This document shows positions 3,961 through 32,080 of a stretch of 64,000 nt of DNA, piece by piece. The notes beneath the pieces were generated by a model that searched no databases, was not told where the DNA came from, and saw only the letters and a list, made by a program, of their open reading frames with translations. How positions within the stretch are numbered: position 1 is the first letter of the stretch; each line of letters starts with the position of its first letter. Position numbers and translations under genes: made by a program. Origin of the DNA: Amycolatopsis balhimycina FH 1894 (GTDB taxonomy: Bacteria; Actinomycetota; Actinomycetes; Mycobacteriales; Pseudonocardiaceae); assembly GCF_000384295.1 (NCBI RefSeq), contig NZ_KB913037.1, positions 4,970,868 through 5,034,867 of the forward strand. Reading direction: 5' to 3'.

Positions 3961-4011
3961 TCTTGAATGACTCATTCAGGACTTCGGAGGTCCTGAATGA
4001 GTCATTCAAGA
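3961..4011. repeat. Intergenic triple-palindrome element A, probable bidirectional terminator
   Basis: A perfect 22-bp stem (3961-3982 with 3990-4011) closed by a 7-nt loop, between convergent dedA and the GlcD-type oxidase gene. Inside it are two 15-bp near-perfect palindromes, TGAATGACTCATTCA (3964-3978) and TGAATGAGTCATTCA (3994-4008), starting exactly 30 bp apart with a 15-bp spacer GGACTTCGGAGGTCC. Four further elements in the window share this 15-15-15 plan. Placement at two gene 3' ends fits factor-independent termination, although no U-tract follows. Confidence 0.8.
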
Positions 4012-4098
4012 CCTCGGGCGAGCCGCGAACCGGACGCGACTTCGCCGGAACCCGGCCCGGGCGGGTGACCTCTCTTCGCGCAGGTCAGGGCGCGCAGG

Positions 4099-5490
4099 TC
4101 AGGGCATCGAGAACATCGAGCCCGGGTTGAACAGGTTCTCCGGGTCGAGGGCCTGCTTGATCTGCCGGTGCACCCGCATGCCGATCGGCCCGATCTCGCG
4201 CTCCAGCCACTCGCGCTTGATCTTGCCGATGCCGTGCTCGCCGGTCACCGTCCCGCCGAGGGACAGGGCGACCTCGAGGATGTCGTCGAACGCGCGGCGG
4301 GCGCGGGCGAACTCGTCCTCGTTGCCGGGCTCGTAGACGATCGTGGGGTGCATGTTGCCGTCGCCGGCGTGGCCGACCACGGCGATCCGCAGGCCGACCT
4401 CTTCGCTGATCTTCTCGCAGCCGCGGATGAGCTCGGCGATCCGCGTCCGCGGGACGCAGACGTCGTCGGTCAGCCAGACGCCGTACATCTCCAGCGCGGT
4501 CAGCACGACCCGGCGGACCTGCAGCAGCATCCGGCCTTCTTCGACGTCCTCGGTGGTGTAGGCGGGGTCGGCGCCGCAGTCGACGCAGATCTGCTCCAGC
4601 GCCGCCAGCTCGCGGCGGGCGACCTCGCCACCGGCGTCCGACTGGCCGAGCAGCAGCGCCCGGCAGTCCGAACCCGCGCCGAGGTCGGTCTTGAGGTACG
4701 CCTCGGCCGCCTTGATCGACGACGCGTCCATGATCTCCAGCAGCGACGGCACCAGCCCTTCGCGGACGACACGGGCGACGGCCTCTCCGGCCGCCTCGGT
4801 GGTGCTGAAGCCCGCGACGAGCGTCGACGGCGCCTGCGGCAGCGGCTTGAGCTGGACGGTCGCCTGCGTGATGACCCCGAGCGTGCCCTCGCTGCCGACG
4901 AACAGCCGCGCGAGGTCGTATCCGGCGACGCCCTTGACGGTGCGCCGGCCGGTCTTGAGCAGCGAGCCGTCGGCCAGCACGACCTCGAGGCCGAGGACGG
5001 AGTCGGTGGTCACGCCGTACTTCACGCAGCAGAGGCCGCCGGCGTTGGTGGAGAGGTTGCCGCCGATCGTGCACCAGTCGTAGCTGGACGGGTCCGGCGG
5101 GTAGAACAGGCCCTGCTTCTCGACGGCGTTGCGGAAGTCCAGGTTGACGACGCCGGGCTGCACGACGGCGAGCCGGTTGCCCGGGTCGATCTCGACGATC
5201 CGGTCCAGCTTGACCAGCGACAGCGTGACGCACCCGTCGATGGCGTTCGCCGCGCCGGAGAGCCCGCTGCCCGCCCCGCGCGGCACGATCGGCACCTTGG
5301 CCTCGGCGCACGCCTTGACGACGGCCTGCACCTGCTCGGCGTTCGCCGGCAGCACCACCGCCAACGGCCGCCCCGACGGCGCCAGCGGCATCATGTCGCG
5401 GGCGTAGGAGGCGGTGACGTCGGAATCGGTGAGCACTGCGCTCTTGCCGAGCAAGTCGCGCAGCCGGCTGACAAAAGCTTCGTGGCCCAT
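4099..5490 (-). CDS. FAD-linked oxidase, glycolate oxidase subunit GlcD / D-lactate dehydrogenase type
   Basis: 463 residues of the vanillyl-alcohol-oxidase/PCMH flavoprotein superfamily. The N-terminal FAD-binding domain shows 'VPRGAGSGLSGAANAID' and 'GGNLSTNAGGLCCVKYG'; the C-terminal FAD-oxidase domain carries 'VVGHAGDGNMHP' (metal/substrate His) and 'GEHGIGKIKREWL'. It oxidises a 2-hydroxy acid such as glycolate or D-lactate; the exact acid cannot be told. No GlcE/GlcF partner is adjacent, but the EtfD-like Fe-S protein at 50906 shows the cell has quinone-linked acceptors. ATG 5490 fits the family N-terminus. Confidence 0.9.
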   Translation of the reverse strand: MGHEAFVSRLRDLLGKSAVLTDSDVTASYARDMMPLAPSGRPLAVVLPANAEQVQAVVKACAEAKVPIVPRGAGSGLSGAANAIDGCVTLSLVKLDRIVEIDPGNRLAVVQPGVVNLDFRNAVEKQGLFYPPDPSSYDWCTIGGNLSTNAGGLCCVKYGVTTDSVLGLEVVLADGSLLKTGRRTVKGVAGYDLARLFVGSEGTLGVITQATVQLKPLPQAPSTLVAGFSTTEAAGEAVARVVREGLVPSLLEIMDASSIKAAEAYLKTDLGAGSDCRALLLGQSDAGGEVARRELAALEQICVDCGADPAYTTEDVEEGRMLLQVRRVVLTALEMYGVWLTDDVCVPRTRIAELIRGCEKISEEVGLRIAVVGHAGDGNMHPTIVYEPGNEDEFARARRAFDDILEVALSLGGTVTGEHGIGKIKREWLEREIGPIGMRVHRQIKQALDPENLFNPGSMFSMP

Positions 5491-5575
5491 GACTCGATGG
5501 TAAGCCCGGGGAGTCCGCACTGCGGAAAGTTTGTTTCGAATCCAACCCTTGCGGCCCAACCCGGGCAAACCGGCG

Positions 5576-6001
5576 TCAGCGGACCAGGCCGAGCAGCTTC
5601 TCGACGTGGATGGTCAGCAGGACCCGCTGGTCGGTGACCATGGCCTCGCGGTACTCGTCCCAGTCGGGGTGCTCGCCCGCCGCCCGCCGGTAGTAGCCGA
5701 CGAGCGCCTCCACCGTCGCGTCGTCCCGTGCGGCCGCGGGAGGCGTCAGCTCCGCGCGTCCCTCCACGACCGCGTAGCTCCAGCCGTCCTCGCTGCCCAC
5801 GTGGTAGGTCACCCGCGGGTCGCGCCGCATGTTCCTGGTCTTCGCCCTGGTCTCGGTGACCGACGCGATGATCGTGCCCGCCTCCGCGTCGTAGTGGTGC
5901 GTGATCGTGGAGAGCTGGGGCCGCCCGTCGCGGCGGATCGTGGCCAGGACGCCGTGGCTGCGCGCGGCGATGAAGTCCTTCAACGCTGTGTCGTCGGTCA
6001 T
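5576..6001 (-). CDS. PPOX-class F420/FMN-dependent split-barrel protein
   Basis: 141 residues of the pyridoxamine-5'-phosphate-oxidase-like split barrel family. Visible features are 'SHGVLATIRRDGRPQLSTI', 'TRAKTRNMRRDPRVTYHV' (phosphate/cofactor-binding basic stretch) and 'YREAMVTDQRVLLTIHVEKL', as in actinobacterial F420-dependent enzymes of this class. ATG 6001 has GGAAG upstream; the longer reading frame has no supporting homology. It lies 85 bp upstream (in its own direction) of the GlcD-like oxidase and may share its transcript. Substrate unknown. Confidence 0.85.
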   Translation of the reverse strand: MTDDTALKDFIAARSHGVLATIRRDGRPQLSTITHHYDAEAGTIIASVTETRAKTRNMRRDPRVTYHVGSEDGWSYAVVEGRAELTPPAAARDDATVEALVGYYRRAAGEHPDWDEYREAMVTDQRVLLTIHVEKLLGLVR

Positions 6002-6141
6002 AGTTCTTCCAACCCTCAGCCACCGCCGTTGTTCCGCAGCCCGGAGGAAATCTGCTTGCATACGACAACTAAAGTGTGTTGCACCACAACCCGAGGTACT
6101 CCGCTTGCGTAACCGCTTGTGAAGGCACATCCTTGCCTGAG

Positions 6142-6153
6142 GCAACTAGTTGC
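6142..6153. promoter_or_regulatory. Candidate MarR operator, GCAACTAGTTGC palindrome
   Basis: A perfect 12-bp palindrome in the 184-bp intergenic region between the divergent split-barrel gene and the MarR/efflux operon, 33 bp before the MarR start. A related, looser GTTG...CAAC arrangement is at 6079-6091. MarR proteins commonly autoregulate through such palindromes; binding is not demonstrated. Confidence 0.5.
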
Positions 6154-6185
6154 AGCCGCCAACCAACGCCTTCGAAGGATCACCC

Positions 6186-6716
6186 ATGGCACCGAACACC
6201 GCCGCCGCCCGGCCCAGGGCCGAACTCGACCTCGCCGACCAGCTCGGTCACGAGCTCGTGCGCCTGGTCCGCCTGATCAACAAGGCGAAGTCGCAGGTGT
6301 CGAAGCAGGGGCCGGACGGCATCGAACGGGCGGCGTACGCGATCCTCTTCACCCTCATCCACGAGGGCCCGCAGCGGACCAGCCGGCTCGCCGAGTCGCT
6401 CCACTCCGAGATCTCCACGATCAGCAGGCAGTCGAGCTCGCTCGTCCAGCACGGCCTGGTCGAACGCCAGGCCGACCCGGAAGACGGGCGGGCCTGCCTC
6501 CTCGCGCCGACGGCCGAGGGCATGCGGGTGTTCGAAGAGAACCGCAAGCAGCGCAACCAGTGGCTGGCCGAAGTACTCGGGGACTGGACCGAAGGGGAGA
6601 TCCAGACCCTCAACCGGCTCTTCGGCCGGCTCAACACAGGTATCGAGAACCACTCTCCACAGCTGGCCGACGCGCAGCCGTCCGCCAGTGCACCGGCCAA
6701 GGGGGCCAACGCATGA
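6186..6716 (+). CDS. MarR family transcriptional regulator
   Basis: 176 residues with a winged helix-turn-helix: 'QRTSRLAESLHSEISTISRQSSSLVQHGLVER' forms the recognition helices and 'DPEDGRACLLAPT' the wing with its conserved DxR. ATG 6186 has GAAGGA 6 nt upstream. The stop codon overlaps the start of the downstream exporter gene (ATGA at 6713-6716), so the two are translationally coupled and this is most likely the local repressor of the exporter, relieved by a lipophilic ligand. Confidence 0.92.
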   Translation: MAPNTAAARPRAELDLADQLGHELVRLVRLINKAKSQVSKQGPDGIERAAYAILFTLIHEGPQRTSRLAESLHSEISTISRQSSSLVQHGLVERQADPEDGRACLLAPTAEGMRVFEENRKQRNQWLAEVLGDWTEGEIQTLNRLFGRLNTGIENHSPQLADAQPSASAPAKGANA

Positions 6717-9313
6717 GTTCCACCACAGAAGCACCGTTGCAGGCCGAGGTGAAGCAACCACCTCGGCTGAGCCACCGCCAGATCGTCACGATCCTGAGCG
6801 GCCTGATGTGCGGCATGTTCCTCGCCGCGCTGGACCAGACGATCGTCGGCACGTCGATCGTCAAGATCGCCAACGACCTGCACGGCTTCGACCTGCAGGC
6901 CTGGGCGACCACGGCGTACCTGATCACCTCGACGATCGTCACGCCGATCTACGGCAAGCTGTCCGACATCTACGGCCGCAAGCCGTTCTACCTGGCCGCG
7001 ATCGGCATCTTCGTGGCCGGTTCGCTGGCCTCGGCCTTCGCGCAGTCCATGTACGAGCTGGCCGCGTTCCGCGCGGTGCAGGGCCTCGGCGCCGGCGGCC
7101 TGATGTCGCTGGCCATGACGATCCTCGGCGACATCGTGCCGCCGCGTGAACGCGCGAAGTACCAGGGTTACATCCTCGCCGTGTTCGGCCTGTCGACCGT
7201 GCTGGGCCCGGTGCTCGGCGGCTTCTTCGCCGGCATCGAGCACGCCGGCAGCATCTTCGGCTACGACATCCACGGCTGGCGCTGGGTCTTCCTGATCAAC
7301 GTCCCGATCGGTGTCGCGGCGCTGTTCGTCGTCGCCAGGGTGCTGAACGTGCCGCACGAGCGCCACGACCACAAGATCGACTGGTGGGGCGCGCTGACGC
7401 TGGTCGTCGCGGTCGTGCCGTTCCTGATCGTCGCCGAGCAGGGCCAGAAGTGGGGCTGGGGCGACGGCAAGGCGATCCTCTGCTACGTCGTCGGCGGTGT
7501 CGGCGTCATCGCGTTCATCCTGGTCGAACGGTGGATGCAGGACGCCGCGCTGATCCCGTTGCGGCTGTTCAAGAACTCGACGTTCACCGTGGCGATCATC
7601 GGCGGTGTCATCGTCGGTGTCGCGATGTTCGGCGCGATCACGATGATCCCGCAGTTCCTGCAGGTCGTGCAGGGCAAGACGCCGACCGAGTCCGGTCTGC
7701 TGATGCTGCCGCTGATGGCGGGCATCATGACGAGCTCGATCGTGTCCGGGCGGATCACCGGGAAGACCGGGCGCTACAAGGTGTTCCCGATCGTCGGCAC
7801 CCTCATGATCGCCGCCGGCGCGTTCTTCTTCGCGCAGGTCGACTACGACTCGCCGCTGTGGCACCCGCTGACCGCGGCCGCCATCATCGGTCTCGGCCTC
7901 GGCCAGTGCATGCAGACGCTGATCATCGCGGTGCAGAACGCCGGCCCGCGCAGCGACATGGGCGTCTCGACCGCGTCGGCGACGTTCTTCCGCCAGATCG
8001 GTGGTACCGCGGGTGTCGCGATCTTCCTGACGGTCCTGTTCAACACCCTGATGCCCAACATCACCAAGGCGTTCGGCGGGCAGCTACCCCCCGGCGCCGG
8101 CGCGAGCGTCGGGAACCTGTCCGAGAACACCAGCGTGATCCAGTCCCTGCCGACCGCGATCAAGACGCCGATCCTGGTCGGTTTCACCGACTCGATCACC
8201 ACGGTGTTCTACATCGCCGGCGCGGTGGCGCTGCTGGCCACGCTGGTGCTGCTGTTCATGAAGGAGATCCCGCTGACCAACGCGGCCCCGGCCGCGGCGG
8301 CCATGGAGGGCGGCGAAGCGCTGCTCGACGCGGACAACAGCGCCGACCACGCCGACGCGCCCACCGAGATCGTCAAGGCGGTGCGTCCGGCCGACCGCGA
8401 GCCCGCGCTGGTCGGCGGCGGGAAGCACGCGCTGAACGGGAACGGCCACGGCGACTACCAGGCCGTGTCGGGCGCGCTGCCCATCACGAACTCGGTCGCC
8501 GACTCCGAGATCGACGTCCCCGTCGGCACCGGCGGGGTGCCCGTGACCGGGCACGTCCGCCGTCAGGACGGCAGCCACGTGCCGGGTGCCGCGCTGACCC
8601 TGATCGACCAGCGCGGCCGCCAGGTCGCCCGGGCCACCGGGGCGGCCGACGGCAGCTTCTCGGTGCCCAGCCAGGGCCCGGGCGCGTACGTGCTCATCGT
8701 GTCCGCGCACGGCCATCAGCCGCAGGCCTCCAGCGTCGTGATCAGCAACGGGCCGGCGACGGCCGACGTCACGCTCACCGGGTCCGGCGAGCTGACCGGC
8801 ACCGTGCGGGCGGCCACCGGCGATCCGCTGGCGAACGTGACCGTGACGCTGACCGACGGCCGGGGCGAGGTGAACGGCGCGTTCATCACGACCGCGGACG
8901 GCACCTACGCCTTCGTCGGAGTCGGCGCCGGGGCGTACACGCTGGTCGCCAGCGGCCCGGGCTACCGGCCCTTCGCGGTGACGCTGACCGTGCCGGACAG
9001 CGGAGTGCTGCGTCACGATGTCGAGCTCGCGAGCTCGGTGCTGCTGAGCGGCACCGCGCGGACCGAGGGCGACCGGATCGTGCCGGACGCGCGGATCACC
9101 GTGCTCGACGCCGAAGGCAACGTCGCCGCCGTGGCCCGGACCGACGACGAAGGCCGGTACGTGGTCAGCGATCTGCCCGCGGGCGCGTACACCGTGGTCG
9201 CGAGCGGCTACCCGCCGGCGACCAGCCAGGTGGAGCTGACCGGCGGCGAGGCCGGCCACGACGTCCGGCTGAGCTACGACCAGGCGCTCGACGAGCTGGT
9301 CGACCGGTCATGA
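6713..9313 (+). CDS. DHA2-family MFS drug exporter fused to three carboxypeptidase-regulatory-like domains
   Basis: 866 residues. Residues 1-~520 are a 14-TM EmrB/QacA-type proton antiporter: 'LDQTIVGTSIVKI' in TM1, motif A 'GKLSDIYGRKPF', motif C 'GPVLGGFFAG'. A ~90-residue acidic/Gly linker follows, then three beta-sandwich repeats (about residues 606-690, 690-775, 775-860), each with the 'DGSFSV/DGTYAFVGVGAGAYTLVASG' pattern of carboxypeptidase-regulatory-like/transthyretin-like domains. With an even TM number the repeats should be cytoplasmic, which is odd for a domain usually found outside the cell. ATGA overlaps join it to MarR upstream and the YceI gene downstream. Confidence 0.9.
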   Translation: MSSTTEAPLQAEVKQPPRLSHRQIVTILSGLMCGMFLAALDQTIVGTSIVKIANDLHGFDLQAWATTAYLITSTIVTPIYGKLSDIYGRKPFYLAAIGIFVAGSLASAFAQSMYELAAFRAVQGLGAGGLMSLAMTILGDIVPPRERAKYQGYILAVFGLSTVLGPVLGGFFAGIEHAGSIFGYDIHGWRWVFLINVPIGVAALFVVARVLNVPHERHDHKIDWWGALTLVVAVVPFLIVAEQGQKWGWGDGKAILCYVVGGVGVIAFILVERWMQDAALIPLRLFKNSTFTVAIIGGVIVGVAMFGAITMIPQFLQVVQGKTPTESGLLMLPLMAGIMTSSIVSGRITGKTGRYKVFPIVGTLMIAAGAFFFAQVDYDSPLWHPLTAAAIIGLGLGQCMQTLIIAVQNAGPRSDMGVSTASATFFRQIGGTAGVAIFLTVLFNTLMPNITKAFGGQLPPGAGASVGNLSENTSVIQSLPTAIKTPILVGFTDSITTVFYIAGAVALLATLVLLFMKEIPLTNAAPAAAAMEGGEALLDADNSADHADAPTEIVKAVRPADREPALVGGGKHALNGNGHGDYQAVSGALPITNSVADSEIDVPVGTGGVPVTGHVRRQDGSHVPGAALTLIDQRGRQVARATGAADGSFSVPSQGPGAYVLIVSAHGHQPQASSVVISNGPATADVTLTGSGELTGTVRAATGDPLANVTVTLTDGRGEVNGAFITTADGTYAFVGVGAGAYTLVASGPGYRPFAVTLTVPDSGVLRHDVELASSVLLSGTARTEGDRIVPDARITVLDAEGNVAAVARTDDEGRYVVSDLPAGAYTVVASGYPPATSQVELTGGEAGHDVRLSYDQALDELVDRS

Positions 9314-10131
9314 CCGGTTTGCGCGCGACCTTCCGCACGGCCGAGGGCTGGGCGGTGGAGCACGCGGTGCTCACCGTCACCGACCCGGCCGGGCGGCAGG
9401 TCGCCCGCCAAGCGGCGGACGTCCGCGGGGAAGTCGTCACCGAGGCGCTCACGCCGGGCGTCTACACCGCCGTCGTCACCGCGGCCGGGTACACCCCGGT
9501 CGCGCGGACGACGCAGATCGCCTCGGACGGCAGTGGCTCGCTCGGCGACGTCGTGCTGGCCCCGGTCGCCGAGGCGGTCGACCTGCCGGCCGCCGGGCCG
9601 TGGGTGATCGACCCGGTGCACTCGTCGGTCGTCGCGACCGCGCGGCACATGGGCATCGCGAGCATCAAGGCGCGGTTCCCGGACCTGTCCGGCCGGATCG
9701 AGATCGGCCGGCCTGCCGAGCGGTCGACGGTGCACGCCGAGATCAAGGCGGCGAGCGTCGAGACCGGCATCAAGATGCGCGACGACCACCTGCGCTCGCC
9801 GGACTTCCTCGACGTCGACGTGCATCCGGTGATCACGTTCACCAGCACCGGAATGCGGCAGCGTGGCGTGGACGCGTGGACGTTGACCGGTGAGCTGACG
9901 CTGCACGGCGAGCGCCGTCAGATCGAGCTGGAGCTCACCTACGGCGGCTGGAACCCGGACCCGTGGGGCGGCGTGCGCGCCGCGTTCCACGCCGAGACGA
10001 CCCTGCACCGCCGCGACTTCGCGATCAACTACAGCGCGCTGGCCCGCGCCGGTGTCGCGGTGGTCGGCACGACGGTGAAGGTGGAGCTGGACATCGAAGC
10101 GGTGCAAGGCGAGTCGCTGCCGCAGTACTGA
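9310..10131 (+). CDS. YceI-family lipid-binding-like protein with N-terminal carboxypeptidase-regulatory-like domain
   Basis: 273 residues. The first ~85 form a fourth carboxypeptidase-regulatory-like repeat ('GRQVARQAADVRGEVVTEALTPGVYTAVV'), continuing the series in the exporter. Residues ~95-270 are a YceI lipocalin-like domain ('WVIDPVHSSVVATARHMGIASIKARF', 'TGIKMRDDHLRSPDFLDV', 'LTGELTLHGERRQIEL'), a fold that binds long isoprenoid-type molecules. No signal peptide, so it is predicted cytosolic. Start overlaps the exporter stop (ATGA). Likely co-operates with the exporter on a hydrophobic substrate; this is inference. Confidence 0.88.
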   Translation: MTGLRATFRTAEGWAVEHAVLTVTDPAGRQVARQAADVRGEVVTEALTPGVYTAVVTAAGYTPVARTTQIASDGSGSLGDVVLAPVAEAVDLPAAGPWVIDPVHSSVVATARHMGIASIKARFPDLSGRIEIGRPAERSTVHAEIKAASVETGIKMRDDHLRSPDFLDVDVHPVITFTSTGMRQRGVDAWTLTGELTLHGERRQIELELTYGGWNPDPWGGVRAAFHAETTLHRRDFAINYSALARAGVAVVGTTVKVELDIEAVQGESLPQY

Positions 10132-10138
10132 AGTTCCC

Positions 10139-10183
10139 TGAGGGGCACCTTCATGGCTCTTAGCGCCATGAAGGTGCCCCTCA
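10139..10183. repeat. Intergenic triple-palindrome element D, probable terminator
   Basis: Starts 8 nt after the YceI stop. A 19-bp stem: TGAGGGGCACCTTCA (10139-10153) pairs with TGAAGGTGCCCCTCA (10169-10183), extended by TGGC/GCCA of the 15-bp spacer (10154-10168). Each 15-mer is itself a near palindrome and their starts are exactly 30 bp apart, as in elements A, B, C and E. Confidence 0.8.
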
Positions 10184-10296
10184 TGACTTTCACCCCTGGT
10201 GAGGGGACGGGTACCGTTCGTGAAAGCTGACTTCCGTGCGAGCCCGATTCGACCGTTCGGCGCGGGGAGTTCACCTGGGCCACGTAGGCTCCGGGT

Positions 10297-10965
10297 GTGA
10301 ACGTCGTGAGCATCGAGGCCGCGGGCGTCGGCGTGAGCTGGCTGGACACCGCCGGGCCGCTGCTCGTCTGGGTGATCGTGCTGAGCTTCGTGCTGGTCGA
10401 ATGCGCGTTGATCATCGGGCTGTTCCTGCCCGGCGACTCGCTGCTGTTCGGGGCCGGCGTGGTGCTGGCGCAGCACGGTTCGGACGCGAACGCGTGGTTC
10501 CTGTCGGGGGCCGCGCTGATCGTCGCCGTCCTCGGCAACCAGATCGGTTACTACATCGGACGCGGCAGCGGCACCAAGCTCATCGCGCGCCGCGACGGGA
10601 AGGTGCTGAACCGGCACAACCTCGAGCGCGCGCAGCGGTTCCTGGACCGCAAGGGCTTCTTCGCGATCGTGGCGGCCCGGTGGATCCCGTGGATCCGCAC
10701 GCTCGCGCCGCTGATCGCCGGCGCCGCCCGGATGGACCCGCGCCGGTTCATGGCGGCGACCGCGCTCGGCGGGCTGCTCTGGGTGCCGACGCTCGTGCTG
10801 CTCGGCTACTACGGCGCCGGGCTGCTCGACGCGCTGCCGTGGCTGAAGACGGCCGCGCTGTGGCTCAGCATCGCGTTCTTCGTGTTCGGCACCGGGTACG
10901 GCGTGCTGCGCTACCGCCAGGAGATGCGCCGACCGGTGGACGACCGCGACGACGCGAGGGCGTGA
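10297..10965 (+). CDS. DedA family membrane protein (second copy)
   Basis: 222-residue DedA/VTT membrane protein. It has 'LVECALIIGLFLPGDSLLFGAG' with conserved Glu and PGD motif and 'AARWIPWIRTLAPLIAGAARM', the Arg-bearing signature, plus 'NQIGYYIGRGSG'. GTG 10297 gives the normal family length; no strong ribosome site precedes it. It stands alone between a terminator-like repeat and a convergent VOC gene. It is only distantly similar to the DedA protein at 3206-3907, so this is not a recent duplication. Confidence 0.87.
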   Translation: MNVVSIEAAGVGVSWLDTAGPLLVWVIVLSFVLVECALIIGLFLPGDSLLFGAGVVLAQHGSDANAWFLSGAALIVAVLGNQIGYYIGRGSGTKLIARRDGKVLNRHNLERAQRFLDRKGFFAIVAARWIPWIRTLAPLIAGAARMDPRRFMAATALGGLLWVPTLVLLGYYGAGLLDALPWLKTAALWLSIAFFVFGTGYGVLRYRQEMRRPVDDRDDARA

Positions 10966-10974
10966 CTCCCCGGC

Positions 10975-11388: not shown

Positions 11389-11528
11389 GGCTTCCGAAGC
11401 CGTCCTTTCGCGTGGCGGCTTCCCAGAGTTACACAGCGCCTGGCCGCCGAAACCGAGGTGACCAAGTTCCCGGTCCGATCGTGATCTCGCCGTCTCCGGC
11501 CGTCCCAGCAGGCGGACGGAGCCCACCA

Positions 11529-11560: not shown

Positions 11561-11569
11561 CGGTGACAT

Positions 11570-18869: not shown

Positions 18870-18887
18870 GAGCGTCTGCGAGGGCTT

Positions 18888-19754: not shown

Positions 19755-19763
19755 CCCTCAGCT

Positions 19764-19818
19764 GCCGTGAATGGCACATTGAGGGACTTAGAGTCCCTCA
19801 ATGTGCCATTCACGGCAC
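19764..19818. repeat. Intergenic triple-palindrome element E, convergent terminator
   Basis: A perfect 26-bp stem (19764-19789 with 19793-19818) with a 3-nt loop between convergent genes. Cores TGAATGGCACATTGA (19769-19783) and TCAATGTGCCATTCA (19799-19813) start exactly 30 bp apart; the 15-bp spacer GGGACTTAGAGTCCC is itself palindromic. The stop codon of the GH76-like gene (19810-19812) lies inside the right arm. Confidence 0.82.
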
Positions 19819-20820
19819 TTCGGCGGACAGCGCTGCCGCGGCTTCGAGGAGCATCCAGCCGCCTACCTGGACCGACATGTCCCGTTCCGGCGCGTCGTCC
19901 GGCAACGGCCACGGTGCCGGGCGGTCCCAGAACGCGCTGAACAACGGCCCATCGGGGGTTTCGGAAGCGCCGGACCAGCACGCCGAGGCCGACCGGAGCA
20001 CCAGAGACCGGGCCACCGAAGCCTCCGGTCCCGGCAGCGCGCGAGCCGCCAACGCCAGGTAGCGGGCCAGGATCGCCGCGAACAACCCGCCGTCGCCGCC
20101 GCCCTGGCCGCGGATGACTCCGCCCGGTGCGCAGTGCTCCGCGACGGCCCGCACTGTCCGAGCCGCATCGTCCATTTCGGACAACTCGAGGCACGCCCCG
20201 AGATAAACACCTTGGCAGTACGTGTAAATGTGCTTCACCAGCTCACCCGTGGCCGCCCGGATGCCGTCCCAGACCAAGCCGGACGCAGGATCGACCAAAG
20301 TGGACGTCATCCACGAAGTCATCTCGCGAGCGCGGGAGAGATTCCCGGACCGGGCGTGGAAGATCGCCGCCGGGCCGTTGGCCGGGGCGTTCTTGAAGTC
20401 GTCCCCGCGTCGCCACCAGATGCCGCCGCCCGCCGCCTGCGTCCAGCCCGACAGGAGTTGCGCGTCGATCGCCGCCAGTGCCGGGCCCACGTCGATGCCC
20501 AGCGGCGAAACCCGTTGCAGCGCAAGGCCGAGCCACGCGATGTCGTCGTAGTAGTCGTTGGTCCAGCGGCCGAAGTTGCGCAGCCGCACCGAACGGACGA
20601 AAACGCGGATCAGGGCCAAGCGCGCCGGCGAAGGGGCGCGCAGCTGAGCGTCGACCAGGGTGTCCAGCAGGTGCGCCTGCCACCAGTAGTTCCAGTGCCA
20701 GTGCGCCCGCTGGCCGGCCGAAGCCGGCCAGCCGCTGCGGCCCAGCACCGTGGCCGGCAGCGCCCAGACGCGGCGTAGGTGGCGCGCGGTCACCGCGCGT
20801 TCGGCAGCCGGGACGTCCAT
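19810..20820 (-). CDS. GH76-like (alpha-1,6-mannanase type) six-hairpin glycosidase, cytosolic
   Basis: 336 residues. 'HWHWNYWWQAHLLDTLVDAQLR' and 'NDYYDDIAWLGLALQRV' resemble glycoside hydrolase family 76, whose two adjacent catalytic aspartates correspond to the 'DD' of 'DYYDDIAWLGLAL'; 'YTYCQGVYLGACLEL' and 'FSAFWDRPAPWP' are further (alpha/alpha)6-barrel features. GH76 enzymes cut alpha-1,6-mannan; actinomycetes have such polymers in lipomannan. No signal peptide is visible from ATG 20820, so the location is unclear. The last codons and stop are inside repeat element E. Confidence 0.75.
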   Translation of the reverse strand: MDVPAAERAVTARHLRRVWALPATVLGRSGWPASAGQRAHWHWNYWWQAHLLDTLVDAQLRAPSPARLALIRVFVRSVRLRNFGRWTNDYYDDIAWLGLALQRVSPLGIDVGPALAAIDAQLLSGWTQAAGGGIWWRRGDDFKNAPANGPAAIFHARSGNLSRAREMTSWMTSTLVDPASGLVWDGIRAATGELVKHIYTYCQGVYLGACLELSEMDDAARTVRAVAEHCAPGGVIRGQGGGDGGLFAAILARYLALAARALPGPEASVARSLVLRSASACWSGASETPDGPLFSAFWDRPAPWPLPDDAPERDMSVQVGGWMLLEAAAALSAEVP

Positions 20821-24118: not shown

Positions 24119-24121
24119 GGC

Positions 24122-24763: not shown

Positions 24764-24786
24764 TGTGCTCACCTGTCGATTGTCGC

Positions 24787-25179
24787 CTAGCCGAGGTGGA
24801 CGGGGCGCGCGTGGGTTTCCTGGGCGTCGTGGCGGTGGCGCCAGCGGTGGTACACGCCGACATAGGAGTAGGCGACGAGCACGATCGCGATGATGCCGAT
24901 CGCCGGCAGCCACGAGTGGGGGAACACGGTGCCGTAGAGGTAGTAGGAGTTGAACCCGCCGGGCAGGTCGCCGAGGCCCTGCTGGTGGCGGAAGTAGTTC
25001 TCCAGCGCGGTGAGCGGGCACGGCACGGGCGTCACGTTGACGAGGACACCCCAGGCCGCCGCGAAGACGTGGACGAAGATCAGCTTCGGCCAGCGCCAGG
25101 CGAGGAAGCCACCCAAGCCGATGAGCACGAGGGCCAGAATGTGCACCGCTACGGTCACGTCGGCCAGGAACTTCGCCAT
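24787..25179 (-). CDS. DUF2784 family integral membrane protein
   Basis: 130 residues with about four membrane segments and the DUF2784 features 'AVHILALVLIGLGGFLAWRWP', 'CPLTALENYFRHQQG' and 'GYGTVFPHSWL'-like turn. The family has no known biochemical function. ATG 25179 is preceded by a G-rich ribosome site. It lies upstream of the SpoU gene with a 23-bp gap, probably co-transcribed. Confidence 0.8.
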   Translation of the reverse strand: MAKFLADVTVAVHILALVLIGLGGFLAWRWPKLIFVHVFAAAWGVLVNVTPVPCPLTALENYFRHQQGLGDLPGGFNSYYLYGTVFPHSWLPAIGIIAIVLVAYSYVGVYHRWRHRHDAQETHARPVHLG

Positions 25180-25407
25180 CCGCACCCCCCTCCCACCGAT
25201 CCCCCTACCAGCGACTTTACTCCGCTGCTGGGGTTCGGCCGCCCTCAAGAGTGCCCCGCCGTGTGATTTTTAACCCAGCGGAGCAACCCGTTCACCTGGG
25301 CGGTGACGGAGGGGTCACACCGGGTGGAAATTCCGGCGGGCGCTTGCCGGGGTACTGGGTGGGTTCCTCGTGCGGGTACTGGTTCGACGGTACGCGTCGC
25401 GATGCCG

Positions 25408-25466
25408 TGAAAGACTCTTTCACCTCGTCGGACGTCATGAACGAGTCGTTCATGACCTCCGACGAG
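25408..25466. repeat. Intergenic triple-palindrome element B, downstream of pyrE
   Basis: Cores TGAAAGACTCTTTCA (25408-25422) and TGAACGAGTCGTTCA (25438-25452) start exactly 30 bp apart. Unlike the other copies the cores are not complementary to each other; instead the second core sits in a 43-bp hairpin whose outer arms are CTCGTCGGA (25424-25432) and TCCGACGAG (25458-25466). It ends 4 nt from the pyrE stop on the minus strand. The rest of the 290-bp gap up to the DUF2784 start (25180-25407) shows no gene. Confidence 0.75.
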
Positions 25467-25469
25467 CCG

Positions 25470-26033
25470 TCAGTCCAGGCCGAGGTCGTCCTTGCCGAGG
25501 ACGTACCGGTACTCCAGGCCTTCCTTCTCAATGGCCTCGCGCGCCCCGGTGTCGCGGTCGACGACCGTCGCGACGCCGATCACGTTCGCGCCCGCTTCGC
25601 GCAACGCCTCCACCGCCGTCAGCACGCTGCCGCCCGTTGTGGACGTGTCCTCGACCGCCAGTACGCGCTGGCCGCGGACCTCCATGCCCTCGATGCGCCG
25701 CTGCATGCCGTGTTCCTTGACCGCCTTGCGGACCACGAACGCGTCCAGCACGACGCCGTCGGAAGCCGCCGAGTGCAGCATTGCCAGCGCTACCGGGTCG
25801 GCGCCGAGGGTCAGGCCGCCTGCCGCGACGTAGTCCCAGTCCGCCGTCAGCTGGCGCAGCAGCTTGCCGATCAGCGGCGCGGCCGCGTGGTGCAGGGTCG
25901 CCCGCCGGAGGTCGATGTAGTAGTCGGCTTCCTTGCCGGATGCCAGGGTCACTTTTCCGTGCACCACGGAAAGATCGGTGACCAGCCTGGCCAGTTCGAG
26001 TTTCGCCGCTTGATCCAACCCGGGGTTCGCCAC
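25470..26033 (-). CDS. pyrE: Orotate phosphoribosyltransferase
   Basis: 187 residues. Transfers ribose-5-phosphate from PRPP to orotate, forming OMP in de novo pyrimidine synthesis. The PRPP-binding motif is 'VLAVEDTSTTGGSVLTAV'; 'TLASGKEADYYIDLRRATLH' is the OPRTase N-terminal signature, 'GGLTLGADPVALAM' and 'VVRKAVKEHGMQRRIEG' the catalytic loop with Lys residues. GTG 26033 gives full family length but has no clear ribosome site, so a leaderless transcript is possible. Not in a pyr operon here. Confidence 0.92.
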   Translation of the reverse strand: MANPGLDQAAKLELARLVTDLSVVHGKVTLASGKEADYYIDLRRATLHHAAAPLIGKLLRQLTADWDYVAAGGLTLGADPVALAMLHSAASDGVVLDAFVVRKAVKEHGMQRRIEGMEVRGQRVLAVEDTSTTGGSVLTAVEALREAGANVIGVATVVDRDTGAREAIEKEGLEYRYVLGKDDLGLD

Positions 26034-26060
26034 GGCGGTGAGTCTTACACACGAGCCCGC

Positions 26061-28532
26061 TCACTCACCGATGGATGTGGCGTCGACCGCACGCCCGCGC
26101 GTCGCCGCCCAGGCCGGGACCAGGATGGCCGCGAGCGACAGGACCACGGCGATCGCGAGCACGGCCAGGTAGATCGTCACCGGGCCCGACGGCAGCAGCG
26201 ATCCCGTCACCACCAGGCAGAACGGGACGATCGCGCCCGCCGCCACCAGCGTTCCGAGCAGCACCGCGATCGCCGCGATCAGGCCGCCTTCGATGCCGGC
26301 CATCCGCAGCACCTGGCCGCGCGTGAACCCGCTCAGCCGCTGCAGCCCGAACTCGCGGCGCCGCCGGGCGGTGGCCATCACCAGCGTGTTCACCACCGAG
26401 ATCACCGTGTACGCGATGATCATCCCGACCAGCAGGTAGTTGACCCACGCGCCGATCTCGTCGCCCTTCGCGTGCGCCGCGATCAGCGTTTCGCGATCGC
26501 CGACGAACACCGGCAACCCCGCGGTCGCCGAGCGAAGACGCGAAGTCAGCAACGCCGTGTCGACGCCGGGAGCGGCGCGGACCAGCAGCTGCGGCGGGAG
26601 CCCGAGCGTCGTGTGCGGGGCCAGCAGCTCGGCGGGCAGCACGAGCCGTTCGAACCCGGGGCGCTGGCTCACGACGGCGGCCACCCGCACCTCCGCCGGC
26701 GTGCCGTCGCCGAGCCGCAGCGACAGCGTGTCGCCGACGTTGCGGCCGAGCTTCGCGGGCACCTCGACGGCGTTCCCGGTCAGCTCGCTGACGCCGAGCG
26801 CCGGCCAGCCGTCCTTGTCCTGGTTGGAGTCGAACGGTTTCTCGACGAACACCGTGCTCGTGACGTACTCCGAGGCACCCGCCACACCCGGAACGGCGGA
26901 AACCCGCCCCCGCACCGAAGAATCGAGCCCGGACGGCCCGGCGACGACGGCGTCCGCGCGCAGGTCCTCGGTGTACGCCTGGTTCGAGACGGCTTCCTGG
27001 GTGGTCTGCAGGTAGATGTTGGCCGTCGCGATGCCGACCGCGAGCATGATCGGGGTGACCGCGCCTGCCGTCCGCACCGCGCCGACGCGGGTGTTGCGCA
27101 GCGCCATCCGGCCGTTGACGCCGGTGATCGCCTGGACCGGCCACCGCAGCAGCGACGCCGTCAGCTTCGTGACGCCCGGGCTGATCGCCGCCAGGCCGAA
27201 CGCCCACAGCATCACCGCCGGGCCCGCCGTGCTGGCCGCGACCGGGCCGGTCATCACGGCGACCGTGACGATGGCCAGCGCCGTCCCGCCCGCGAAGCAC
27301 AGGATCGCGGTGATCACCCGGATCGGTGTCAGCCAGCGCCGCTCGACGGCGGCTTCGGCGAGCGCCTCGGTCGGGCGGACCCGCGAAGCACGACGGCCCG
27401 CCACGGAGGAAGCCGCCACGACGGCCGGCAGGGACGCGCCCGCGGCGACCGTCGCCGGCAGCCAGCCCTGCTCGAACCGCAGCACGTCGGGCACGACGTG
27501 CTGCGCCGCGAGCTGGTCGAACAGCCAGTTCCCGAGCACCGGACCCAGCACGACCGCGACACCGACGGCGAGCAGCCCGACGACGAGCGCTTCGCCGCGC
27601 ACCATCCGCCGCAGCTGGCGCGGGCTCGTGCCGATCGCGCGCAGCAGCGCGAGTTCGCGCTGGCGCTGCTGGGTCGACAGCGTGAGCGTGCCCGCGACGA
27701 CGAACACCATCACCATCGCCGACAGCCCGCCCGACACCGCGGCCAGCACGATCAGGTCCTCGCCGCCCTTGCCCACCTCGGGGAACTCCAGGGCACCGCG
27801 GCCGACGCCGGTCGTCACGACCCCGGCGTCCCCGACGGCGGCCGACACCGCGGCGACGTCACCGCCGAAGACGCCGATGGTGTCGAAGCGACCCGGGTGG
27901 CCGGACAGCCGTGAAGCGTCCGAAGGCGCGAAGAACAGCGCCGAATCCCGCATGGCCTGCGGCGCTTCGGCGATGCCGGAGATAGGGAACGAGCCGACAG
28001 TGCCGTGCGCGGCGATCGGCAGCACGTCGCCGACCGCGAGCCCACCCGAACGCGCCAGAGCGGCATCGACGACGACCTCACCCGGCTGCGGAGCCTGGCC
28101 ACTCAGCGCGTACGGCGCGAGCACGGCGGAATCCCAGGCGTGCCCGAGCGCGCTCGCGGAGCCGATCTGCGCCGGGAAGCTGACCTCGCCGACGACGCGG
28201 GTGACGCCGGGGACCGCGCGCAGGCGGCCCGCCAGCGCCTCGTCGAGCCGGACGCGCTCGGGCAGGGTCGCGTTGTCGAACTTGTGCTTGTCCTTGTGCT
28301 TGTCTTCGGGGTCGAGGGTGGCCGGGTCGTCCTCCGGCAGCTTGAGCGCCTGCTGCCCGCCGACGACGATCGGCGCCGCGGCCAGCCGCTGCACCGGCGT
28401 CTCGGACCGGATGCCGGTCTCCATCAGGCCACCGCACGCCGAGACGATCAGCGCGCCGAAGAACACGGCGACGAACGTCGCCAGGAAGCCGCCTTTACGC
28501 AGGCGAACCGTGCGGAGCGCGAGGGAGAACAT
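26061..28532 (-). CDS. ABC transporter permease, FtsX/MacB type
   Basis: 823 residues with two FtsX-like modules: an N-terminal TM ('FLATFVAVFFGALIVSACGG'), an extracytoplasmic domain, three TMs around residues 265-400, a second central TM plus extracytoplasmic domain, and three C-terminal TMs ('YLLVGMIIAYTVISVVNTLVMA', 'GLIAAIAVLLGTLVAAGAIV', 'LAVLAIAVVLSLAAILVPAWAA'). Works with the adjacent ATPase, most likely in efflux or lipoprotein/envelope handling. ATG 28532 overlaps the ATPase stop (TGATG); GTG 28535 is also possible. Confidence 0.88.
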   Translation of the reverse strand: MFSLALRTVRLRKGGFLATFVAVFFGALIVSACGGLMETGIRSETPVQRLAAAPIVVGGQQALKLPEDDPATLDPEDKHKDKHKFDNATLPERVRLDEALAGRLRAVPGVTRVVGEVSFPAQIGSASALGHAWDSAVLAPYALSGQAPQPGEVVVDAALARSGGLAVGDVLPIAAHGTVGSFPISGIAEAPQAMRDSALFFAPSDASRLSGHPGRFDTIGVFGGDVAAVSAAVGDAGVVTTGVGRGALEFPEVGKGGEDLIVLAAVSGGLSAMVMVFVVAGTLTLSTQQRQRELALLRAIGTSPRQLRRMVRGEALVVGLLAVGVAVVLGPVLGNWLFDQLAAQHVVPDVLRFEQGWLPATVAAGASLPAVVAASSVAGRRASRVRPTEALAEAAVERRWLTPIRVITAILCFAGGTALAIVTVAVMTGPVAASTAGPAVMLWAFGLAAISPGVTKLTASLLRWPVQAITGVNGRMALRNTRVGAVRTAGAVTPIMLAVGIATANIYLQTTQEAVSNQAYTEDLRADAVVAGPSGLDSSVRGRVSAVPGVAGASEYVTSTVFVEKPFDSNQDKDGWPALGVSELTGNAVEVPAKLGRNVGDTLSLRLGDGTPAEVRVAAVVSQRPGFERLVLPAELLAPHTTLGLPPQLLVRAAPGVDTALLTSRLRSATAGLPVFVGDRETLIAAHAKGDEIGAWVNYLLVGMIIAYTVISVVNTLVMATARRRREFGLQRLSGFTRGQVLRMAGIEGGLIAAIAVLLGTLVAAGAIVPFCLVVTGSLLPSGPVTIYLAVLAIAVVLSLAAILVPAWAATRGRAVDATSIGE

Positions 28533-29272
28533 CACGCGCGCACCCCCATCCGGTCCCAGGCGCCCAGGTGGGTCATCCGCTCGGCGACGGCTTCCGCGGT
28601 CGGCCTCGCCAGCCGCCCGGCGATCCGGCCGTCGGCCAGGAACACGACGTCGTCGGCGTAGGACGCGGCGACCGGGTCGTGCGTCACCATGATCACCGTC
28701 TGGCCGGACGACCGGACGGACTCCCGCAGCAGGCCGAGGACCTCGGCGGCGGTCCGCGTGTCGAGTGCGCCGGTCGGCTCGTCGGCGAACAGCACGGCCG
28801 GGTCGGTGACCAGGGCCCGCGCGATCGCGACGCGCTGCTGCTGGCCGCCGGACAGCTGCCCGGGCAGGTGCTTGCGGCGCCCGTCGAGGCCGACGTGCGC
28901 GAGGATCCGCGCCACGAGCCGCTTGTCCGGGCGCTTCCCGGCCAGCTGCAGCGGCAGCACGACGTTCTGCTCGACCGTCAGCGCCGGAAGCAGGTTGAAC
29001 GCCTGGAACACGAACCCGACGCGGTCACGCCGCAGCTTCGTCAGGAAGGTCTCGTTCTTGCCGTCGAGGTCCTGGCCGTCGAGCACGACCCGGCCCGACG
29101 TCGGCCGGTCGAGCCCGGCCGCGCAGTGCAGGAACGTGCTCTTGCCCGAGCCGGACGGCCCCATCACCGCGGTGAAGCCGCCGCGCGGGAACGAGATCGA
29201 AACCCCGTCCAGCGCGACCACTCCGCCGTACTCCTTGCGCACAGCCTCGAGCCGGACCGCCTCATTCGTCAT
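28532..29272 (-). CDS. ABC transporter ATP-binding protein, MacB/LolD type
   Basis: 246-residue NBD: Walker A 'GPSGSGKSTFLH', Q-loop 'VGFVFQAFNLLPALTVEQNV', signature 'LSGGQQQRVAIARAL', Walker B 'AVLFADEPTGALD', H-loop 'IMVTHDP'. 'ADEPTGALD' and 'FQAFNLLP' place it in the LolD/MacB/FtsE class that powers FtsX-type permeases. Start at 29272. Coupled by TGATG overlap to the permease downstream. No regulator is adjacent. Confidence 0.92.
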   Translation of the reverse strand: MTNEAVRLEAVRKEYGGVVALDGVSISFPRGGFTAVMGPSGSGKSTFLHCAAGLDRPTSGRVVLDGQDLDGKNETFLTKLRRDRVGFVFQAFNLLPALTVEQNVVLPLQLAGKRPDKRLVARILAHVGLDGRRKHLPGQLSGGQQQRVAIARALVTDPAVLFADEPTGALDTRTAAEVLGLLRESVRSSGQTVIMVTHDPVAASYADDVVFLADGRIAGRLARPTAEAVAERMTHLGAWDRMGVRA

Positions 29273-29347
29273 GGGGAAAACGCTAGGCAGGCAGCGGCCC
29301 GGCCACCCTGGTGCGCACGCGCGTCTTCCCGGTAGGGACAGCCCTAC

Positions 29348-30115
29348 TCAGGTGCGGCCTTTGCCGCCGAAGCCGCCGCTGATCCGGCGCAGCACCGCGC
29401 GTGGCAGCAGGCCGCCGATCGCGACGACGGCCTTGTACTGCAGGCTCGGCACGGAGATCACCTTGCCGCGGCGGAGATCCGCGAGCGCCTCGCCGACCAC
29501 CTGTTCGACACCCAGCCAGGCGATTTTCGGGCCGGGTTTGCCGATGCCGGCCCGTTCGTGGAACTCGGTCGCCGTGAAACCAGGACAGAGCGCCATCATC
29601 CGGACACCCTTCGGCAGCGACGCGGCGATGCCTTCGGTGAACGACGTGACCCAGTTCTTGCTCGCCGTGTACGTCGACCCGCGGCCGCTGAAGAAGCCCG
29701 CCACGCTGCTGACCTGGATGATTTCGCCGTGGCCGCGCTCGATCATGCCGGGCAGCACGGCTCGGGTGAGCCGCAGCACGGCGGTGACGTTGACGTCGAG
29801 CTGGCGCTGCAGCGCGTCCGGCGGGATCGTCCAGAAATCGCCGTTCAACCCGAACCCGGCGTTGTTCACCAGGAGGTCGACCGGCCCGGTGGCGAGCCGC
29901 TCCTCGACCGCGGCTCGTCCGTCCACTTCGGACAGATCGGCGGGCAGCACCTCGACGGCGACTCCGTGCTTTTCGCGCAGCTCAGCGGCGTACGCCTCCA
30001 GTCGCGCGGTGTCGCGGGCGACGAGCACGAGGTCGTATTTCTCGGCGGCGAGCGCGCGGGCGAACTGCGCACCGATGCCCGCGGTGGCTCCGGTGATGAG
30101 AGCGGTGGTGGTCAT
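29348..30115 (-). CDS. SDR family NAD(P)-dependent oxidoreductase
   Basis: 255-residue classical SDR: '[18 protein letters not shown]' (cofactor loop TGxxxGIG), '[10 protein letters not shown]' (NNAG), catalytic Ser in '[11 protein letters not shown]' and 'YTASKNW' (YxxxK). The dinucleotide loop and the C-terminal '[24 protein letters not shown]' segment resemble the DltE/YqjQ group that acts on hydrophobic substrates. ATG 30115 starts at the family N-terminus. Divergent from a secreted protein gene across 70 bp. Confidence 0.88.
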
Positions 30116-30185
30116 GTGGGTGAACCATACCTGCTGGTCAGGGCCGGATGTGCGCGGCGATTCACCGGGAAGTATCGTCCGGCGC

Positions 30186-31115
30186 ATGGGTAAGCACAGC
30201 AGGCGCAAAAGCGGCTATCTGCCCAAAGTCGCTGCCGGCGCGGCGCCCGTCGCGCTGCTTTTCGCGGCGCCCGCGGCCGCGCTCGCGAGCCCGGCCGAGC
30301 TGACCCTGCCGCTCGACCACCGCGAAGACAGCACGTTCGGGCGCGACGCCTCGACTTCGGGCCAGGACGGTTCATCGGTAGTGCGCGAGACCCTGACCGC
30401 GACCCGCCACGACTTCCTCGCGAAGGAGGTCGCCGGCGCGGTTGTCACCAACGACCTCGCCGAGTCCGCAACCACCCACCGCGAGGAGCGGCAGACGGAG
30501 ACGTCGGCCGCGTCGCGGGAAACCGAGTCGCTCACCCGCACCGGACGGCACACCTTGCGGTCCGGCGACGTCCGCGCGGTCACCGCGAACAACCAGCGGC
30601 TCGGTCAAGGTGGTTCGCGCAGCCTGTCGCTCTCGCCCCTCGCCGGCGGCGCCGAGCGCCGGATCGGCGTCGGCGAAGGCACCAACCACGGCGTCTGGCT
30701 GGCCGACGACGTCGACGTGCTGAGCCAGAACGCCGAACAGGCCGACACCGGCCTGCGCGGTACATTCACCGGAGACCTCCAGGGCGCGTTCTCAGCCCGC
30801 CGGTCGTCCGGGCAGGCCGTCGACCTCGGTCAGCTGGGCGCGCTCGGCACGACGTCCGAACAGCACGCGACCGGCCAGTTCGCCGGCGTACTCGACCTGG
30901 GCCAGCAGCACGAACTGGGTGGTCAGCTCGGCCCGGCCCGGGGCTGGACGAAGACGAGCCAGTCCCTCGGCCCGGCCGGGCCGGCGGGCTCGATCCGCGG
31001 TGACCTCGGCGTCGACCACGTCGTCCACGCCGAAGGCGGCACGACGTCGGTGCGCGGCACGCTCGACCGGTCGGGGTCGCTCAGCGCGCTCGACCAGCCG
31101 GTGGTCGGCTTCTAG
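30186..31115 (+). CDS. Secreted protein of unknown function
   Basis: 309 residues. An N-terminal signal peptide (basic '[14 protein letters not shown]', hydrophobic core, Ala-rich cleavage region ending near 'AALAS') is followed by ~270 polar residues rich in Thr, Gly, Ser and Asp with short alternating patterns such as '[15 protein letters not shown]', '[15 protein letters not shown]' and '[12 protein letters not shown]', which suggest a beta-rich repeat structure. No Cys, no anchor, no known domain. Its stop codon shares the tetranucleotide CTAG (31112-31115) with the stop of the convergent gene. Confidence 0.7.
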
Positions 31116-31897
31116 CTCTCGCTCGGCTTCGGCGGGCCGTCCGCGGGTGGCTGCTGGACCGGGGTCCCGGCCGCCGGAGTGCCCGGGGCGGTGGCTTCGG
31201 ACGGGACGGAAGCTTCGGCCGGGATCGGCGCGCTCGCCTGGTGGCGGCCGGCGTCGTAGTCCTCGTCGAACGGGTCGACGATGTCCGCGATCTCGCCCAG
31301 ATCCCTGAGCAGCCGCTCGAGCCGCGACGGCCCCGCGGTCGGGGCGACGCTGGCGAGCACCCACTCGTTCTCCAGCCAGGCCACGCCGACGTCGCCGCCG
31401 AGCTGGTCCGCGGCGTCGACGAGCTCCTGGGTGATCACGACGCGGGCGCCGTCGGCGTCGTCCGCGAAGGCGTAGCGCGAGCCGATCGGGCCGAGCATCT
31501 CGGGCATGTCGGCGCGCTGGAACGGCACGCTGGACAGCCACATCTCGATCGGGATCCGGTGCTTCTTGTTGCAGCGCACGGCGACCACGACCGCGGGGAT
31601 CTGGCCCTCGGTCTCGATGTCGAAGATGAACACCGGGCGGCGGCCGTCGGAGGTGAAGGTCGAGCCCGCGACGACGTTGACGGCGGCGTCCGCGCCGAAG
31701 TAGCCGATGGCGCCGTTCGACCACTGCTGCGGCAGCCGTTCGTCCTCCTCGACGAACTGCCAGCCGCGCAACTGTGCCCAGCGCATTCGCTCGCGGTTGC
31801 GCGAGCCCTCCTTCGCCCGGTCGGCCGCGAGCAGCCCCAGCCCCGCCACCAGCGCGACGGCGGCGATGACGAACCAGATCCACGCCGGAATACCCAC
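31112..31897 (-). CDS. Membrane-anchored protein of unknown function
   Basis: 261 residues: one N-terminal membrane segment ('IPAWIWFVIAAVALVAGLGLL'), a soluble middle of ~190 residues ('MRWAQLRGWQFVEEDERLPQQW', 'FIFDIETEGQIPAVVVAVRC'), and a Pro/Ala-rich tail. The 'AQLRGWQFVEED' start resembles a family of actinobacterial proteins of unknown role. GTG 31897. The 190-bp region between its start and clpB holds repeat element C. I do not recognise a function. Confidence 0.72.
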   Translation of the reverse strand: MGIPAWIWFVIAAVALVAGLGLLAADRAKEGSRNRERMRWAQLRGWQFVEEDERLPQQWSNGAIGYFGADAAVNVVAGSTFTSDGRRPVFIFDIETEGQIPAVVVAVRCNKKHRIPIEMWLSSVPFQRADMPEMLGPIGSRYAFADDADGARVVITQELVDAADQLGGDVGVAWLENEWVLASVAPTAGPSRLERLLRDLGEIADIVDPFDEDYDAGRHQASAPIPAEASVPSEATAPGTPAAGTPVQQPPADGPPKPSES

Positions 31898-32029
31898 GAC
31901 CGCCAGGGTATCGCCTGTTACGCCGGAGGGATGATCGCCGGTACCCGTGTCGCCGTGCCCATTCGAACCAATTCACCCGGTCCCGGGTCGACAAATCGCC
32001 ATAAGACGCCACTGTGGACGCCCGGAACG

Positions 32030-32080
32030 CCGTGAAGGCCACCTTCAGGAACTACAAGTTCCTCAAGGTGGCCTTCACGG
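32030..32080. repeat. Intergenic triple-palindrome element C, clpB terminator
   Basis: A 23-bp stem with one mismatch, 8 nt after the clpB stop on the minus strand. Cores TGAAGGCCACCTTCA (32033-32047) and TCAAGGTGGCCTTCA (32063-32077) start exactly 30 bp apart; spacer GGAACTACAAGTTCC is palindromic. Same 15-15-15 plan as the other four elements. Confidence 0.8.

Follow-up and report, generated by a model that had tools for sequence, protein, structure and literature searches.

Paired palindromes in a 30-bp register at gene 3′ ends in Amycolatopsis

Five paired palindromes in the window

The window analyzed here is a 64,000-nucleotide stretch of the Amycolatopsis balhimycina FH 1894 genome (10.86 Mb, hereafter G000), C1:4970868-5034867. 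It contains five copies of a paired palindrome, in which two 15-bp cores start 30 bp apart, lying between called genes (Table 1). A search of the window with the pattern TGAAnGnnnCnTTCA-N15-TGAAnGnnnCnTTCA, allowing up to 3 mismatches, finds these five and no others, and the chance expectation for the paired pattern is 0 (100 dinucleotide shuffles). An initial annotation of the window had placed them at the same sites, with element 3 one base off (19769-19813), and at gene 3′ ends, a location that our home-made codon-usage gene caller (85.8% of bases called coding) supports for all five. Single cores with at most 1 mismatch number 14 in the window versus 0.55 expected, and 10 of the 14 belong to the five pairs. 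Rfam has no match within the window at the gathering score.

Table 1. Paired-palindrome elements of the window, with called neighboring genes (positions within the window)
Element	Extent	45-bp pattern match	Strand	Family, cores and predicted structure	Neighbors
1	3960..4012	3964-4008	.	F1, TGAATGACTCATTCA cores 3964-3978 and 3994-4008; 53-bp hairpin	Convergent called genes 3206-3907(+) and 4099-5490(-)
2	10139..10183	10139-10183	.	F4, TGAGGGGCACCTTCA; hairpin	7 bp past the stop of called gene 9310-10131(+); upstream of 10297-10965(+)
3	19763..19817	19768-19812	.	F2, TGAATGGCACATTGA; 55-bp hairpin	Convergent called genes on either side; TCA 19810-19812 is the stop codon of called gene 19810-20820(-), a low-score call
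4	25408..25466	25408-25452	.	F5, cores 25408-25422 and 25438-25452, not alike; small hairpin on core 1 and larger hairpin centered on core 2 (25424-25466)	17 bp from the stop of 25470-25952(-)
5	32030..32080	32033-32077	.	F3, TGAAGGCCACCTTCA; 51-bp hairpin	10 bp from the stop of 32088-34682(-)

Copy number, register and families

The same pattern matches 405 pairs in the whole G000 genome, and the reversed control pattern matches 0; a genome-wide search to be set against shuffled sequence had been proposed by the initial annotation. In a 1.2 Mb sample of the genome (C1:3000001-4200000), 47 of the 49 core pairs (at most 1 mismatch) that lie within 200 bp of each other are spaced by exactly 30 bp. 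The enrichment of this spacing, on which the initial annotation had made its claim depend, is borne out. Only two of 49 exact cores in the sample have no partner at 30 bp, and these are the halves of one F1 element split by an insertion sequence (IS). The IS belongs to the IS1380 family (NF033539, E 1.9e-93) and lies in the F1 loop at L152:10759-12401 (C1:3250759-3252401), flanked by a 5-bp duplication, TCCGA. The IS has its own inverted repeats, and we reject the idea that the partnerless cores are the ends of an autonomous element.

The register is also found without use of the motif. A motif-free scan for long hairpins gives 114 in the 1.2 Mb, versus 1 in one shuffled copy. Among 154 such hairpins (101 from G000 and 53 from a relative, G078), which are not independent because many are copies of a few families, 52 have a left-arm self-palindrome exactly 15.0 bp from the hairpin center, and no other distance occurs more than 3 times. 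Counting either arm, 63 of the 154 have a self-palindrome at 15.0 bp and 91 do not.

Each half-site is an imperfect palindrome with the consensus TGAAnGnnnCnTT.., in which a G-C pair closes three bases. The two halves are oppositely oriented with centers exactly 30 bp apart, so that either one 45-61 bp hairpin or smaller ones may form. Across 33 distinct cores, the letters are T 82%, G 94%, A 100%, A 88%, n, G 100%, nnn, C 100%, n, T 88% and T 97%; symmetry was the sole criterion for picking arms, any element having two exact cores was dropped, and the percentages are only descriptive because the cores are interrelated and part of the loci were fetched via motif matches.

We sorted the sequences by eye into families F1-F8; both these names and the separate treatment of F5 were chosen after inspection of the sequences. 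F1 has the sequence TGAATGACTCATTCA, F2 TGAATGGCACATTGA, F3 TGAAGGCCACCTTGA, F4 TGAGGGGCACCCTCA and F5 TGAACGACTCTTTCC. In G078, F7 has sequences such as GTCGTGAGTGAGTAACAGTG.., and F8 (CCAATGTGGCGTTGG) retains the inner AAnGnnnCnTT with changed outer letters. Judged by eye, the 114 motif-free hairpins of G000 are made up of F1 to F8 and of single hairpins. Arrays of three or more cores with the TGAA motif are absent from 1.26 Mb of G000 and 0.75 Mb of G078; by eye, the CCAA..TTGG family of G078 forms 30-bp arrays.

A few other repeats were seen in passing. F6 is a further hairpin repeat, with hairpins and arrays on CTCGCGTGATTGGGGCCGTAACTCGCG-like sequences (G000 C1:3386742, C1:3722533 and C1:4178418). 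Other paired palindromes have a different spacing, for example with CTTTCACGTGAAAG arms or TGTCAGGTTCCTGACA arms (C1:3990754, C1:3433127, and in genome G065 at the slot C1:3864808). Elements from several genomes of the genus have 5-base loops that frequently seem to carry TAG, CTA or CTAG, as in GCGTCTAGCGC of G007.

Folding and covariation

Predicted RNA folds of elements 1-5 have energies of -47.3, -44.4, -53.9, -39.0 and -49.2 kcal/mol (z-scores -9.9, -9.2, -11.9, -6.0 and -9.4), and DNA folding parameters give the same main helices. The initial annotation had noted mutual pairing of the two cores for four elements out of the five. The predicted folds agree, and the exception is element 4, which folds around its second core.

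It had also described the variable core positions as changing together to remain self-complementary. We examined 58 diverse clusters from 182 distinct 45-mers. Watson-Crick pairs link variable positions on opposite sides of the long stem in 74% of cells (33% on average and at most 39% in shuffles), which bears out the covariation there. Within cores the figure is a weaker 43% (shuffle mean 27%, maximum 38%), and a slid control gives 31% (mean 26%, maximum 34%). Constraint acts mainly on the long stem and less strongly on the inner palindrome. The suggested fold into three small hairpins is real but secondary to the long stem, which has the better covariation support and is predicted for all elements except element 4.

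Placement at gene 3′ ends

In the 1.2 Mb sample, 30 of 51 elements lie between convergent genes, 20 in tandem gaps, 1 in a divergent gap and 0 within genes, where intergenic bases would predict 9.1 convergent, 27.7 tandem and 14.2 divergent (p 3e-14). All 20 elements in tandem gaps are closer to the stop of the upstream gene. None of the 51 overlaps a called gene by more than half, in keeping with the intergenic location on which the initial annotation had also relied. At 5 of 80 flanking 3′ ends the called stop codon is a TGA belonging to the element, and the same holds at element 3 of the window.

The elements place a stable hairpin just past the stop codon, as a terminator would. A U-tract of at least 4 after the stem is absent from all 112 strand ends (1.2 Mb and window); T runs at the stem foot reach no more than 3, a length that 19 of the 112 ends have. 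With so few T's, the elements resemble the U-poor (I-shaped) or bidirectional transcript ends of Streptomyces clavuligerus, which likewise have long stable stems, short loops and few U's and which serve both strands (PMC8269248, available in part). The S. clavuligerus ends are sites of one genome (same source), whereas the elements here are a dispersed family that differs among species.

Distribution among relatives

A search of related Amycolatopsis genomes, which the initial annotation had called for, finds the plan in 75 of 80 genomes of the genus at up to 2 mismatches, with 0 to 528 copies per genome; the letters change and the plan is kept. At up to 1 mismatch, the family level has matches in 36 of 130 genomes (21 of 46 genera) and the class level in 5 of 394 genomes, G000 included. 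Genomes with other outer letters are undercounted, because the search fixes TGAA..TTCA up to the allowed mismatches. Among the matches listed, exact ones occur in Amycolatopsis, Prauserella, Lentzea, Kutzneria, Allokutzneria, Actinophytocola, Haloechinothrix and Rhodococcus; at least 120 exact-match loci from this list entered the core-letter and covariation analyses.

Identical copies and turnover between relatives

The copies are scattered, and 19 of 56 (1.2 Mb sample and window) have an exact 45-mer in common with another copy. For F1 to F5, alignment similarity ends a median of 3-8 bp outside the 45-mer on either side.

G000 and G078 are 94.5% identical over about 0.6 Mb of aligned blocks, and orthologous regions in G078 were located for 29 of the 56 elements. 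At shared gene ends, the same hairpin is found in 1 of 31 comparisons for F1-F4, F7 and F8, a single case in which a shorter F3-like hairpin matches at 78%. Ordinary hairpins recur at 32 of 51 shared gene ends (Fisher p 2e-8 versus 1/31). These counts are pooled over both directions, with pairs common to both genomes counted twice, and 67 of 161 hairpins were left out because they have no orthologous region. The other 30 comparisons comprise 18 with a different hairpin and 12 with no hairpin in the compared region; at four gene ends, G000 has F3 and G078 has F7 in the same slot.

The initial annotation had suggested looking for occupied and empty sites among orthologous loci, and we found several clean empty sites as well as swapped hairpins. 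At C1:3835599, the two stop codons of G078 abut and G000 has 64 extra bases that include F2, with no duplication. At C1:3464380, a 152-bp insert with F1 has CTAG on either side, a convincing 4-bp duplication, and the empty site of the relative has a single CTAG. At C1:3864808 there is a GCCG repeat at the insertion junction, and this slot differs among five relatives: G078 and G061 have no hairpin there, G066 carries F7, G065 has a paired palindrome of an unrelated kind, and G077 has a variant of F1 whose ends are C..G. A second pair, G061 and G066, was sought for cleaner junctions and is just 93.7% identical. The slot of element 1, compared in the best-matching 30 of the 80 genus genomes (G000 included), holds variants of F1, a terminator with a T-tract, repeats of other kinds or no hairpin, and in some cases two of these occur side by side.

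Search for a mobilizing system

REPs (repetitive extragenic palindromes) of other phyla are thought to be mobilized by Y1 transposases of the TnpA-REP/RAYT kind (REP-associated tyrosine transposase; PMC8266576, available in part). The Y1_Tnp domain (PF01797) has no match in any of the 80 genus genomes and matches 5 of 14 in a control set; the search did not extend to other HUH or DDE enzymes. On this basis we reject a RAYT, as in REPINs (REP doublets forming hairpins), as the mover of these elements. With regard to spread by plasmids or phages, a single 91-bp query, element 3, matched no plasmid, and the one viral-contig match to the pattern lies in AT-rich sequence and is chance-like.

Comparison with known repeats

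In plan the elements are REPIN-like. REP/REPIN repeats (bacterial interspersed mosaic elements, BIMEs) of proteobacteria and others are high-copy extragenic palindromes, often in oppositely oriented pairs that fold singly or as one long stem, and are sited downstream of genes and between convergent genes (PMC3733652, available in part; also the source for the CGTC-tagged REPs below). The elements here are likewise many extragenic imperfect palindromes in inverted pairs (405 in G000, 0 of 51 genic). REP spacers are mostly reported as 20-100 bp, whereas the elements here have a rigid 30-bp register and three-base loops. Two REP features are also missing: the unpaired tag at the foot (within 12 nt, GTAG at 0 of 56 and CGTC at 19 of 56, where the GTC can lie in the paired stem, as in GTCTTG..CAAGAC examples) and the RAYT, found in 0 of 80 genus genomes. 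CGTC-tagged REPs are likewise REP-like palindromes, and are reported to have no associated transposase genes. Their reported features are stems of 8-9 bp, loops of 4-5 nt, a terminal CGTC and an unpaired CCA-like tail, a combination that we did not see by eye among our elements.

The elements are also like miniature inverted-repeat transposable elements (MITEs) in being small, non-coding inverted-repeat copies that are present or absent between relatives, with one CTAG-flanked case. They differ in that target duplication is inconsistent and no partner transposase was identified, in a search limited to Y1.

The initial annotation knew of no description of this plan. REP/REPIN dimers, which fold as two small hairpins or one long one, are a described relative and a partial precedent; what has no match there is the rigid 30-bp register, the consensus AAnGnnnCnTT and the absence of Y1 transposases. 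We found no description in the literature searched, from which subscription papers were mostly excluded, and the main text of the large REP survey PMC3733652 lacks the terms actinobac, Amycolatopsis and Streptomyces.

Interpretation

We interpret the elements as copied, REP/REPIN-like paired palindromes without a RAYT that serve as bidirectional, U-poor hairpin 3′ ends, with a probability of roughly 0.58. Judged from sequence, such a 3′ end is their most likely role. What we observe is the hairpin structure, its position at gene ends, its scattered identical copies and its turnover; a part in termination, the machinery of copying and the cause of the 30-bp register are inferred. A long, very stable, U-poor RNA hairpin would end or protect transcripts from either side, and copies landing between converging genes may be kept for this reason. 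Copies would spread by machinery that reads the half-site, other than a Y1 (RAYT/IS200) transposase. Retention of the register and of the AAnGnnnCnTT letters suggests that this machinery, or a DNA-binding protein, touches both half-sites. The initial annotation had left a terminator, a mobile MITE-like element and a protein-binding array as options; a terminator-like hairpin and a dispersed, lineage-specific repeat are supported together.

Several observations weigh against this interpretation. Placement does not mark out the family, because ordinary hairpins are placed alike: all 86 hairpins scoring at least 16 in the 1.2 Mb include 42 convergent, 39 tandem, 3 divergent and 2 genic, and stem-loops of many bacteria are reported with the same gene-end placement (PMC1590033, available in part). 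With a longest T run of 3, the elements are not textbook U-tract terminators, and some slots carry a second hairpin with a T-tract (for example in G030). The hairpin is dispensable where the relative's region holds none (12 of 31). F5 behaves differently, with 6 of 12 retained (7 of 43 for repeats including F5), and 19 of 51 ordinary hairpins do not recur either. Junctions are mostly blurred at 94.5% identity, and duplication is inconsistent (CTAG, GCCG and none at three sites). Five of the 80 genus genomes have no match.

We put forward more tentatively, as a possibility short of an even chance, that the elements are self-spreading terminators. A Y1-independent system would copy two-half-site palindromes (AAnGnnnCnTT, 30-bp register) into Pseudonocardiaceae gene ends, with the letters drifting by species and the plan staying, and some enzyme would thereby repeatedly re-furnish 3′ ends with new hairpins.

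The placement and stability would also fit ordinary bidirectional hairpin terminators without mobility, formed at their present sites and diverging there, with stems kept perfect by selection and template switching. Template switching during replication is able to make and repair stems (PMC8794818, available in part), and the 91 of 154 long hairpins without the plan, together with the like placement of ordinary hairpins, fit this account. It is nevertheless unlikely, given the scattered copies with exact 45-mers in common, the retention of 1 of 31 at shared gene ends versus 32 of 51 for ordinary hairpins, and the identical register in families of unlike sequence.

We give an equally low likelihood to an array of protein-dimer sites about three helical turns apart (chromosome-organizing or gyrase-like), with the hairpin as a by-product. 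Letters fixed beyond the needs of pairing would suit such an array, as would the fixed 30-bp register and the presence in other genera (G581, G485, G563 and G536) of three or four cores arrayed in register. Pairing across the long stem, however, exceeds pairing within cores, and since the only partnerless cores in the 1.2 Mb come from one split element, the core site is not used singly there.

Least probable is that the hairpins are passengers inside MITEs moved by an ordinary DDE transposase: about 5 of 27 F1 copies lie within a longer shared repeat of about 150 bp (by eye), one of them the CTAG-ended copy at C1:3464380, but similarity mostly stops a few bp beyond the 45-mer and F1 is found by eye in two different longer contexts.

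If the elements are copied hairpin 3′ ends, as we favor, industrially important actinobacteria would contain a high-copy REP-like system without the REP-linked enzyme, which makes the spread of such repeats an open and testable question. Gene 3′ ends are a fast-changing slot, in which whole hairpins vary among species and the flanking genes stay. The elements are also candidate short bidirectional insulators for strain engineering.

Other repeats

A second repeat, approximately CTGTCGGACCCTCGCGGTAACGTGAAAACAGGGGTCCCCCGGGCGGGGACCCCTG, occurs in the window at about 3927-3953 and in part of L201-L229. Many of the 30 compared genomes have it at this gene end, and the G000 copy is seemingly cut by the region of element 1. 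A repeat of about 100 bp (L183:3818-3922) has several copies in G065, G061, G077 and G078, and is missing or shorter at the orthologous place in all 5 relatives searched. The window also contains 15-bp tandem repeats at 41796-41857 (4.1 copies) and 57479-57558 (5.3 copies).

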